This document shows, in pieces, positions 26,259 to 29,024 of a stretch of 64,000 nt of DNA (positions are counted from its first letter, which is position 1; each line of letters opens with the position of its first letter). The notes beneath the pieces are model-generated. The model worked only from the letters and a program-made list of their open reading frames with translations, was not told the origin of the DNA and searched no databases. A program made the translations under genes and the position numbers. The DNA comes from an uncultured Bacteroides sp. (GTDB lineage: Bacteria; Bacteroidota; Bacteroidia; Chitinophagales; Chitinophagaceae): positions 1-64,000 of the forward strand of contig CABHOP010000011.1 of NCBI GenBank assembly GCA_902168085.1, written 5' to 3'.

Positions 26259-26281
26259 AGCCCATCTGTGAGGATGGGCTC
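26259..26281 (-). terminator. Terminator of the BON-protein gene
   Basis: On the minus strand AGCCCATC-CTCACA-GATGGGCT is followed by TTCTTATTT. It also lies just after the forward MORN gene but lacks a T-run on that strand. Confidence 0.7.
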
Positions 26282-26303: not shown

Positions 26304-27443
26304 TTATTGGCTGTTCTTATTTTTATTGTTGGCAGATGTCCTGCTTTCCGATGTGTTGTCAGTGCCGGATGACGAATTATTCCTGTCGTTCCAGCTATTG
26401 TTGTTGTTTTGCACACGCAGGTGGTTTTCTACATTCATAACACCCGATATCGACTCCGCAATGCTTTCTGCGCGGCGTTTAGCCTCACGGCTTTCTACAT
26501 TGCCTTTCAATATTACTTCGCAATTGCTTACACTTACTTCTATATCAGAAGCATCCAGTTGTGAATCATCAGCCAAGCGATCGCTGATATCTTCTTTTAT
26601 TCTTTCATCAGAACGTTTGTAGCCCTTAGGGCCTTTACCTGAATGTTGGCCCCGGCTACTTGTTTGCTGGTTCCAGCCACTGTTGCGCGATGTGTTCCAA
26701 TCGCTGTTGTTGCCGCCCCAGTTCCCTTGATTGGTAGATTGGCCTAATGAGCCTCCATTTGCGCCTTGTCCCCAGCTACCTTGATTCCCATAGTTACCTT
26801 GGTTACCATATTGGCTGCCGTAATTGGAACCACCTGCGTTATAGTCATTGCCATAGCGCGTGCTGCCATAGCCACCGCTGCTCGGGTTGCTGTTCATGCT
26901 TTGCCAGTTATTATCATAATTGTGCTGGCCATAGCCTTGATTTCCATAAGTGTGCGCATAATTGCTTTGGTTGTAACCGCTATCATTATACCCCTGGCCG
27001 TACTGATTGCCATACAGTTGCCTGTATTGATTATCAGGGTTGAAATTCTGGCTGCCTGAATTTGAATAATTACTACCAAACGGGCTGGTATATTGCGAAT
27101 CATTTCGTGGGTTGCCATAGCTGCTTTCACCACTGTATGGCTGGCTTTGCCATTGCGATTGCTGATTCTGCCTTTGGTTATTATAGCCACCTTGCCAATC
27201 TTCGCGATAACCCCCGCGTCCACGGTTCTGGTTTTGCCAATCGCTATAGCCCTGATCTTGTTGAGGGCGGTTGTAGCGGGTACCTTCATTATCCCATTGA
27301 TTATAATCAGAAGAAGCAGCGTTCATATAATCTTCATTGTTCCTGGTTGATGAGGAGCGATAATCGTTAGGATTTGAATAGTCATTTCCTTGCAGCGCAT
27401 TATCAGCAGTTTCCCTGTACTGAGAGCGTGAGTTTGTTGCCAT
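26304..27443 (-). CDS. BON domain protein with long prion-like Gly/Asn/Tyr/Gln region
   Basis: A 379-aa protein without signal peptide. Residues about 1-270 are of very low complexity: Tyr, Asn, Gln, Gly and Ser dominate, with many NYGNQG, YGNQ, SGGYGS and QGYGQH motifs, Trp-rich patches (NQGNWGGNNSDWN) and some Arg. A single BON domain follows at about 280-345 (DERIKEDISDRLADDSQLDASDIEVSVSNCEVILKGNVESREAKRRAE), then an Asn/Ser-rich tail. BON domains bind lipid or other proteins and are usually exported; this one shows no export signal, which is odd. The composition resembles eukaryotic phase-separating proteins. The ORF is confirmed by the BON domain being in frame. Confidence 0.88.
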   Translation of the reverse strand: MATNSRSQYRETADNALQGNDYSNPNDYRSSSTRNNEDYMNAASSDYNQWDNEGTRYNRPQQDQGYSDWQNQNRGRGGYREDWQGGYNNQRQNQQSQWQSQPYSGESSYGNPRNDSQYTSPFGSNYSNSGSQNFNPDNQYRQLYGNQYGQGYNDSGYNQSNYAHTYGNQGYGQHNYDNNWQSMNSNPSSGGYGSTRYGNDYNAGGSNYGSQYGNQGNYGNQGSWGQGANGGSLGQSTNQGNWGGNNSDWNTSRNSGWNQQTSSRGQHSGKGPKGYKRSDERIKEDISDRLADDSQLDASDIEVSVSNCEVILKGNVESREAKRRAESIAESISGVMNVENHLRVQNNNNSWNDRNNSSSGTDNTSESRTSANNKNKNSQ

Positions 27444-27641
27444 AACTAGTGATTTTTTAAAGTTTATGATTTACTCTTTCTGTACTAAAAACTATGCCTG
27501 CACGTATATACCCATTGCATGTAGAACAATGTACACAAGCTGAAAAGCCTTGGTTGTAGATGTGTCTGTAACGATTTTAGATAACAACTATGTGTGGCTG
27601 GTATTAGATTTATAACGCAGCGTTTCAATAGTCGCGCATAT

Positions 27642-29024
27642 TTATAGCCTGAATAATAAGGCGGCAATAATGCGGTCTTCCGATTTTACAAGGTCGGGTT
27701 GCCAGCCGGTAGGTATAGGGGTAGTGGTGTAGCCTGTAGGCGATGTAACACCACCGCGCCCTGCAAAATAGGGTACACTAGATTGCCTGTGTACATATTC
27801 TATACGGAAGGTGATACTTTGGTTAGGCATCCAGTCGAAATTAGTAGAGCAGTCCCAACCAGTAAACGTGTCGCCGGGATTAGCACTGAATGGGTGGCTG
27901 CCGGCTGTTTGTGTAGGATTGGTAGGGTTTGGCAGTGGGCTGGCATCGCCGGTAGGGTACAGCACCAGGTAGCGGCCTGGGTTGGTCATATACCCGCCAC
28001 CCATGGTCCATGCAAATTTATTTTTATTGAACCATATGCGATTATATATCATGCCGCTGATAAAATGCTGTGAAGGAGTAGTAGCATCACCATTGAAGGC
28101 TTTTACGCCACCACCGGTTTCAAACCCGAAATCACCCGTTAATGAAAATGCCATCCGACTTATGCCACGCGATGTGGGACGATTATAGTATCGCACTAGC
28201 AAACTGTTGTCGGAGTGAAACCTTTTCCTGCCCGGTATATTTGCTGCATCGCTGCCATAATAATCATTAGTTAACAGCTTGATGTATTCCTGCGGGCACC
28301 AGGTAATATTCATACCTAGCCCGGGCATGCTATTGAACTTGCCATAACTCTGCCAGCCATTTATGATCCAGGGCTCTATTTTCAACTTTGCGCTTGGATA
28401 TATCTGCACACGCAAGCCGTTAAAGAACCAGGGAGTATTATCGGATGTAAATGAAGCCTGGTATTCCCAGTTCTCCACCTGGTAATAAGAGTTCAGCCCG
28501 ATATAAGACATGAACATACCTGCATCTACATTGATGCCATGCCATACATTGAAATGGTAGCCTGCATAGGCTTCGCTCAGGTAGCGGTATACATTCGCCA
28601 GTTCATATTGCCCCCGATATACGCTATAATCATTACGCGGTACTACTATGGAACGTGTGCCAAACTGTGTCATTATTTTGGCATGTGCATTTTGGTAATT
28701 GAATTCACCACCTATGCCTGCAAAAGAAACCTGCATTTCATTATTCCGCGCCAGTGCGGTAGAGCCTACCACCGTATTGTCTATCGGGTTGTTGAAGGAA
28801 TGGGTGTAATTGACATCCAGCATTACGCTTCCTGTAAAATATTTAGTTTGCAATGCAGAATGCGTGCGTCGGTCGCTACCGTTTTGCCACGTCATATCCA
28901 TACCGGCAAAAGGTGTCTTTTCTTCTTTTGGTTCGGTGACTTGTTCTTGTTTTGTCTTTGATTGCGCTGGATTATTTATTAATGCTATAGCGTATAGAAA
29001 GCATAGCCATATACCTTTTTTCAT
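27642..29024 (-). CDS. Outer-membrane beta-barrel porin (OmpL/BBP2-like)
   Basis: A 460-aa outer-membrane protein with a signal peptide (GIWLCFLYAIALINNPAQS). The sequence has alternating strands with aromatic ends and the features of the bbp2/OmpL-like putative porin family, such as YLSEAYAGYHFNVWHGINVDAGMFMSYIGLNSYYQVENWEYQASF. The protein ends in a typical terminal Phe/Leu signature (IIAALLFRL). It probably forms a diffusion channel for small solutes. No inner-membrane transporter lies next to it. Confidence 0.87.
   Translation of the reverse strand: MKKGIWLCFLYAIALINNPAQSKTKQEQVTEPKEEKTPFAGMDMTWQNGSDRRTHSALQTKYFTGSVMLDVNYTHSFNNPIDNTVVGSTALARNNEMQVSFAGIGGEFNYQNAHAKIMTQFGTRSIVVPRNDYSVYRGQYELANVYRYLSEAYAGYHFNVWHGINVDAGMFMSYIGLNSYYQVENWEYQASFTSDNTPWFFNGLRVQIYPSAKLKIEPWIINGWQSYGKFNSMPGLGMNITWCPQEYIKLLTNDYYGSDAANIPGRKRFHSDNSLLVRYYNRPTSRGISRMAFSLTGDFGFETGGGVKAFNGDATTPSQHFISGMIYNRIWFNKNKFAWTMGGGYMTNPGRYLVLYPTGDASPLPNPTNPTQTAGSHPFSANPGDTFTGWDCSTNFDWMPNQSITFRIEYVHRQSSVPYFAGRGGVTSPTGYTTTPIPTGWQPDLVKSEDRIIAALLFRL

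Follow-up and report, generated by a model that had tools for sequence, protein, structure and literature searches.

A BON-domain protein with no export signal and an arm of prion-like composition, from a family of several phyla with stress-type promoter elements

The BON locus and its product

The stretch of DNA that we analysed, hereafter the window, spans 64,000 nucleotides of a Chitinophagaceae-type genome of 3.58 Mb and carries a gene encoding a BON-domain protein, whose features are collected in Table 1. Read from the sequence, the inverted repeat downstream of this gene is likely a terminator shared by the two convergent genes. On the other side, a gene for a BBP2 beta-barrel porin (27642-29024) lies between the BON gene and an rlmI-like methyltransferase gene. 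The nearest relative of the locus, in genome G011, is 93% identical and syntenic with it, but the BBP2 gene is absent there, indicating a recent gain or loss. An operon with the upstream porin is disfavoured, since the BON gene and 170 bp of its upstream region are conserved in G011 in spite of the missing porin. No conserved gene neighbourhood was found beyond the pair formed by the window and G011, nor any partner or ligand of the BON protein. In four other Bacteroidota loci (L039, L042, L045 and L048), the gene just upstream of the BON gene ends, as judged by eye, like the C-terminus of a response regulator receiver. The record of locus L071, which matches G011:C75, is titled Azovibrio restrictus, a betaproteobacterium, and the proteins of the G011 contig are 93-99% identical to those of the window genome; this record is likely a misnamed MAG.

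Table 1. Features of the BON gene and its flanks, in window coordinates.
Feature	Position	Strand	Evidence
ORF, 379 aa: disordered arm, GKGPKGY linker, BON domain, Ser/Asn/Thr-rich tail	26304..27443	-	translation, Pfam, AlphaFold
N-terminal low-complexity arm, predicted disordered, residues 1-266	26646..27443	-	composition, AlphaFold, dN/dS
Hypervariable patch, codons 219-266 (two closest genomes compared)	26646..26789	-	dS 1.03, dN 0.22
Family-specific linker HSGKGPKGYKR, residues 267-277	26613..26645	-	alignment of relatives
BON domain, residues 278-345, closest solved relative OsmY	26409..26612	-	Pfam, AlphaFold, sequence/fold comparison
Ser/Asn/Thr-rich C-terminal tail, residues 346-379	26307..26408	-	translation, alignment
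GGCATAGTTTTT, promoter-like element common to Bacteroidota members, 55 bp upstream of ATG	27487..27498	-	motif comparison; conserved in G011
Inverted repeat gcccatc-tgtgag-gatgggc between convergent genes	26260..26279	.	read from sequence

The arm consists largely of Asn (47 residues, 18%), Gly (40, 15%), Ser (37, 14%), Gln (35, 13%) and Tyr (28, 10.5%), with 15 Arg, 15 Asp and 9 Trp, and contains no Lys, Ile, Val or Cys at all. We took the 59 ORFs of the window as the background of composition: with 6.9% Lys in the other ORFs, the probability of finding none in 269 residues is about 5e-9, and the maximum of Gln plus Asn per 80 residues is 29 in the arm against 17 in the next-highest ORF. The arm holds 39 aromatic residues and 21 Gly/aromatic adjacencies. 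AlphaFold, run on an alignment of 30 members, gave residues 1-268 a pLDDT that stays below 50 almost throughout, and the arm is accordingly predicted to be disordered. These results bear out the preliminary description of a prion-like Tyr/Asn/Gln/Gly region of about 270 residues, as well as its likening of the region to eukaryotic phase-separating domains, insofar as the arm is long, predicted disordered and prion-like or FUS-like in composition. Two of its details did not hold: instead of dozens of NYGNQG and related motifs, the arm has one exact NYGNQG, three YGNQG, six YGN and four NQG, and instead of Trp patches its nine Trp are scattered (positions 50, 69, 83, 98, 180, 224, 242, 249 and 257). 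Tandem repetition in the DNA of the gene is negligible, with a single 31-bp array.

Yeast-type prion domains have at least 30 Gln/Asn in 80 residues, a density that is reached by the G011 copy (30) and by two other relatives (35-36). Hydrophilins, in turn, have more than 6% Gly and a hydrophilicity above 1. With 12.1% Gly and a mean Kyte-Doolittle hydropathy of -1.71, the window protein has both the high Gly and the high hydrophilicity of this class, and a hydrophilin-like composition was also found in 76 of 78 relatives; the published definition is a qualitative one (PMC4190154).

Pfam BON (PF04972) matched residues 278-345 over profile positions 1-68 of 69 (E = 9.9e-19; 67.9 bits against a gathering cut-off of 27), and the predicted fold is helix-strand-strand-helix-strand at a pLDDT of about 96. 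This core is nearest to OsmY both by sequence and by fold. It is preceded by a linker whose G269, G271, P272, Y275 and R277 do not vary among 30 members, which represent several phyla.

We found no hydrophobic N-terminal segment or signal peptide in the window protein, and no lipobox, transmembrane segment or Pfam/NCBIfam secretion domain. The open frame reaches only nine codons above the ATG (388 aa in total), and these add no hydrophobic stretch; therefore no missed upstream signal peptide fits, and the absence of an export signal noted earlier stands. Among 79 relatives, a hydrophobic N-terminal segment occurs in one (L034), where an internal Met, apparently the more usual start, follows it. 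From these sequence features, the protein is very probably cytosolic. Such a location is in itself not odd for a BON protein, contrary to what had been supposed, since CBS-BON architectures are on record and E. coli Kbp has no signal sequence (PMC7806268); the title of a reference in the same paper calls Kbp a cytoplasmic K+ sensor.

The family and selection on its arm

With an 82-residue core as query, a scan of the genomes of 84,980 species revealed members in Bacteroidota, Rhizobiales, Rhodobacterales, Caulobacterales, Acidobacteria and Planctomycetes. Further members, from Azospirillum, Sinorhizobium, Deinococcus, Burkholderia, Cupriavidus and Novosphingobium, came from plasmid records. 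The relatives share a disordered arm of about 100-500 residues, a linker of the form H-x-G-K/R-G-P-K/R-x-Y-x-R and the BON domain, behind which a Ser/Thr-rich (S/T/N) tail is frequent. The length and sequence of the arm vary widely across genera. The architecture was thought to be unusual, a view that its recurrence in several phyla does not support. For the subfamily with an invariant GxGPxxYxR linker before the BON domain and a Lys-poor, aromatic, disordered arm, we coined the name RGKGP-BON; the window protein displays all of these traits. Within the Chitinophagaceae the family is present in 22 of 299 genomes, a patchy spread that marks it as an accessory gene. Phage records contained OsmY-type matches only and no family members, so we rejected a phage origin.

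Several relatives are annotated as 'BON domain-containing' or 'SWFGD domain-containing'. The SWFGD motif (NF033157, 29 residues) lies between arm and linker in the congener paralogues L013 and L014; the NCBIfam profile found no match in the window protein or in L004.

Between the window and G011, the dN/dS of the arm is 0.114 overall and 0.037 over residues 1-218 (30 synonymous and 6 nonsynonymous changes), values to be set beside 0.01-0.06 for most of the housekeeping neighbours and 0.13 for one of them. Arms of other relative pairs with measurable dS gave 0.07-0.13. Composition is maintained as well: each of the 47 Asn codons of the arm is one base from Lys, yet Lys codons number zero, and in comparison with other ORFs of their own loci Lys is depleted in 74 and aromatic residues are enriched in 71 of 78 relatives. 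Residues 1-218 of the arm are thus under strong purifying selection, and therefore the objection foreseen by the preliminary description, namely a rapid decay of the repeat region in close relatives with no selection on composition, fails. Codons 219-266 (26646-26789) stand apart, with a dS of about 1.0 inside an otherwise conserved gene, which suggests local recombination or conversion.

It is mainly in Bacteroidota that the arm is rich in Asn and Gln; elsewhere it is rich in Arg and Asp. Mean N+Q of the arm is 20% in Bacteroidota and 6% in Alphaproteobacteria, whose arms have Arg and Asp/Glu instead. We considered GC drift as the source of the N/Q richness, but the overall correlation of N/Q with GC (rho = -0.68) has phylum as a confounder and is lost among Bacteroidota alone (rho = 0.19); N/Q richness is therefore a trait of the lineage. 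One suggestive exception is L038, a low-GC acidobacterium (36% GC, 22% N+Q).

Promoter-like elements upstream of the family

Bacteroidota members share the sequence GGYAYRRTTTT at 41-63 bp before the start codon, and the element is present in 23 of 37 distinct members. It was noticed in one set of sequences and tested on another, largely independent one, in which GGYAYNN(N)TTTT preceded 15 of 20 members against 13 of 528 control windows (p = 7e-18); to judge by length, composition and motifs, in which they are identical, 4 of these 20 sequences appear to be present in the first set already. Elsewhere in the home genome it stands ahead of DJ-1/PfpI, DUF2383, DUF3606, low-affinity iron permease, OmpA and receiver-like genes, and the enrichment before ORFs is modest when this genome is taken alone (20 of 30 matches, against 3 of 13 for the reversed pattern; p = 0.018). 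Across four congeners, a longer form of the element gave 37 matches and its reversed pattern 4, with DUF2383, OmpA, YetF, response regulator and hybrid kinase genes behind it. We take the genes of both lists to belong to stress-type families. Strong enrichment of TGGYAYRRTTTTTT over the reversed pattern, ahead of orthologous stress-type genes, was seen in the home genome and in G005, G010, G013 and G014, and a receiver-like gene of the home genome (L147) carries a GGYAYRRTTTT-type element. Its occurrence suggests that TGGYAYRRTTTTTT is a general-stress promoter in this family.

As to the sigma factor, a canonical sigma-54 promoter was rejected: the GG half fits, but the -12 GC of the canonical site is missing from GGYAYRRTTTTT, and matches to the canonical pattern exceed the control no more than about twofold. 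A sigma-54 core-binding domain is present in two proteins of the home genome (G000:C50:22166-22747 and G000:C22:12756-13331), and one of these may read the divergent, GG-only element. Nor did we find, upstream of the window gene, the housekeeping promoter of Bacteroidota (-33 TTTG/-7 TAnnTTTG).

Alphaproteobacterial members have a different element. The EcfG general-stress motif GGAAC-N15-18-CGTT, whose published consensus is GGAAC-N16-CGTT (PMC3892343, PMC7083833), lies upstream of 14 of 53 members, in 13 of them at -45 to -91, whereas 0.4 were expected from shuffles and 26 of 894 control windows contained it (Fisher p = 4e-9); close kinship among many of the members makes the counts less than fully independent, but the spacers of the sites differ, and several orders are represented among them. 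About three quarters of the alphaproteobacterial members have no strict EcfG site. Variants of the form GGAAC-N-GTT were seen upstream of 4 of 5 further plasmid members, including that of S. meliloti pSymB, with a looser pattern and no control. The EcfG regulon papers that we consulted name no BON genes in their main text.

The linker-BON core is conserved across phyla, and the promoter elements are consistent with stress control. From the motif enrichment, we regard stress regulation of the window gene as probable.

A candidate stress protein and its known relatives

Because the protein shows no sign of export and genes of the family often lie behind stress-type promoters, its most likely role is an intracellular one in surviving stress. 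This role is better supported than a condensate or a storage body, with either of which the sequence is compatible. The explanation to which we incline, if by a small degree, is a general-stress, non-exported RGKGP-BON protein in which an OsmY-like BON head carries a hydrophilin-like disordered arm. Under osmotic, drying or stationary-phase stress, such a protein would accumulate in the cytosol, its BON/linker part might bind a partner (a client protein, nucleic acid or a membrane surface), and its arm could act as a hydrophilin-like protectant, self-associating weakly via Tyr/Trp/Arg stickers; with falling cell water, the arms would form a protective gel or assembly. The chances that the arm is such a protectant appear evenly balanced, and true phase separation of the protein in cells seems rather doubtful.

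Only slightly less credible than such phase separation in general is a dedicated scaffold whose arm would drive cytosolic liquid or gel condensates concentrating BON-bound clients or RNA, by analogy with FUS-like domains or the disordered insert of Bacteroides Rho. The FUS-like, Lys-free composition of the arm with its many aromatics (39 in 266 residues) and Gly/aromatic adjacencies (21), its predicted disorder and the selection on it would all suit this role, as would the phase separation by a disordered region that is reported for Bacteroides thetaiotaomicron Rho under starvation (PMC10284900), but the N/Q content is specific to Bacteroidota, the 6% N+Q of alphaproteobacterial members implies that a prion-like mechanism is no family-wide requirement, and the densest stretch of the window arm falls just below the prion-domain cut-off. 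We likewise think it unlikely, and a shade more so, that the whole family consists of stress-induced cytosolic condensate- or gel-formers across phyla, with a BON head binding a client or membrane, a Lys-free aromatic arm (N/Q-rich in Bacteroidota, R/D-rich in Alphaproteobacteria) driving assembly, and unrelated general-stress promoters in the different phyla.

The remaining explanations fare worse. A peripheral protein of the cytosolic membrane face, in which the BON domain and the basic GKGPKGYxR linker would bind anionic phospholipid and the arm would form a hydrated brush during osmotic stress, is improbable: the second BON domain of DolP does bind anionic phospholipid and the core of the basic linker is invariant, but DolP binding depends on W127 in helix 1 of BON2, BON domains have been argued not to be generalist lipid binders (PMC7806268), residues 278-345 contain no Trp, and OsmY, the closest structure, lacks that Trp as well. 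It is very unlikely that the protein is exported or reaches the surface by a non-classical route, with the arm as an adhesive or a filler of the envelope; the envelope is where several named BON proteins (OsmY, DolP) act, but none of the export features sought is present, and 78 of 79 relatives have no hydrophobic N-terminus. Least credible of all is that the arm arose as neutral low-complexity drift by repeat expansion on a BON gene, as its variability across genera and the hypervariable codons might indicate, against which stand the excess of synonymous changes in residues 1-218, the missing Lys and the depletion of Lys and enrichment of aromatics in nearly all relatives.

Seen within its family, the window gene is no isolated curiosity; it belongs to a broader class that is unstudied. 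Bacterial stress-linked disordered proteins are few and poorly understood, and the family occurs in culturable, genetically tractable hosts such as Sinorhizobium and Azospirillum; with a selected arm and apparent ties to general-stress promoters in two phyla, the question of whether a FUS-like arm serves stress survival is therefore directly testable. In the open literature (subscription journals lay outside the search), we found no paper that links BON to prion-like sequence or describes the arm, and no account of selection or promoter evidence for the family; the findings on selection and promoters are new here.

Among known proteins, E. coli OsmY shares the BON fold and an osmotic or stress association, but it is periplasmic, with a signal sequence, two BON domains and no disordered arm. 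The window protein lacks the two BON domains and the signal sequence or lipobox that characterise OsmY and DolP, having a single BON, and scored 32.7 bits with the full-length NCBIfam OsmY model, against a cut-off of 174. E. coli Kbp (YgaU) is similar in its single BON and lack of a signal sequence, but differs in its LysM, K+ binding and want of a long disordered arm; Pfam found no LysM in the window protein. A. baumannii DtpC, considered as a BON desiccation protein, was rejected as diiron-oxidase-like. Like hydrophilins and LEA-like proteins, the window protein is Gly-rich (12%), hydrophilic, predicted disordered and probably stress-induced, unlike typical LEA proteins in its fused folded BON domain and its aromatic-rich, Lys-free arm. 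Bacteroides Rho is also a Bacteroidota protein with a long disordered region and a stress context (PMC10284900), but it is a different protein with a different domain. The closest counterparts are the SWFGD/BON proteins, for example of Paracoccus aestuarii (WP_119886659.1), Azospirillum argentinense (WP_051658447.1) and S. meliloti pSymB (WKL39751.1), which share the aromatic/Gly/Arg disordered arm, the RGKGP/RGRGP linker, a single BON, the absence of a signal peptide and, in many, a stress-type promoter; the window protein differs from them in having no SWFGD motif, far more Asn/Gln and less Arg/Asp. The family is already in the databases under two names, and the window protein is an N/Q-rich member of it.
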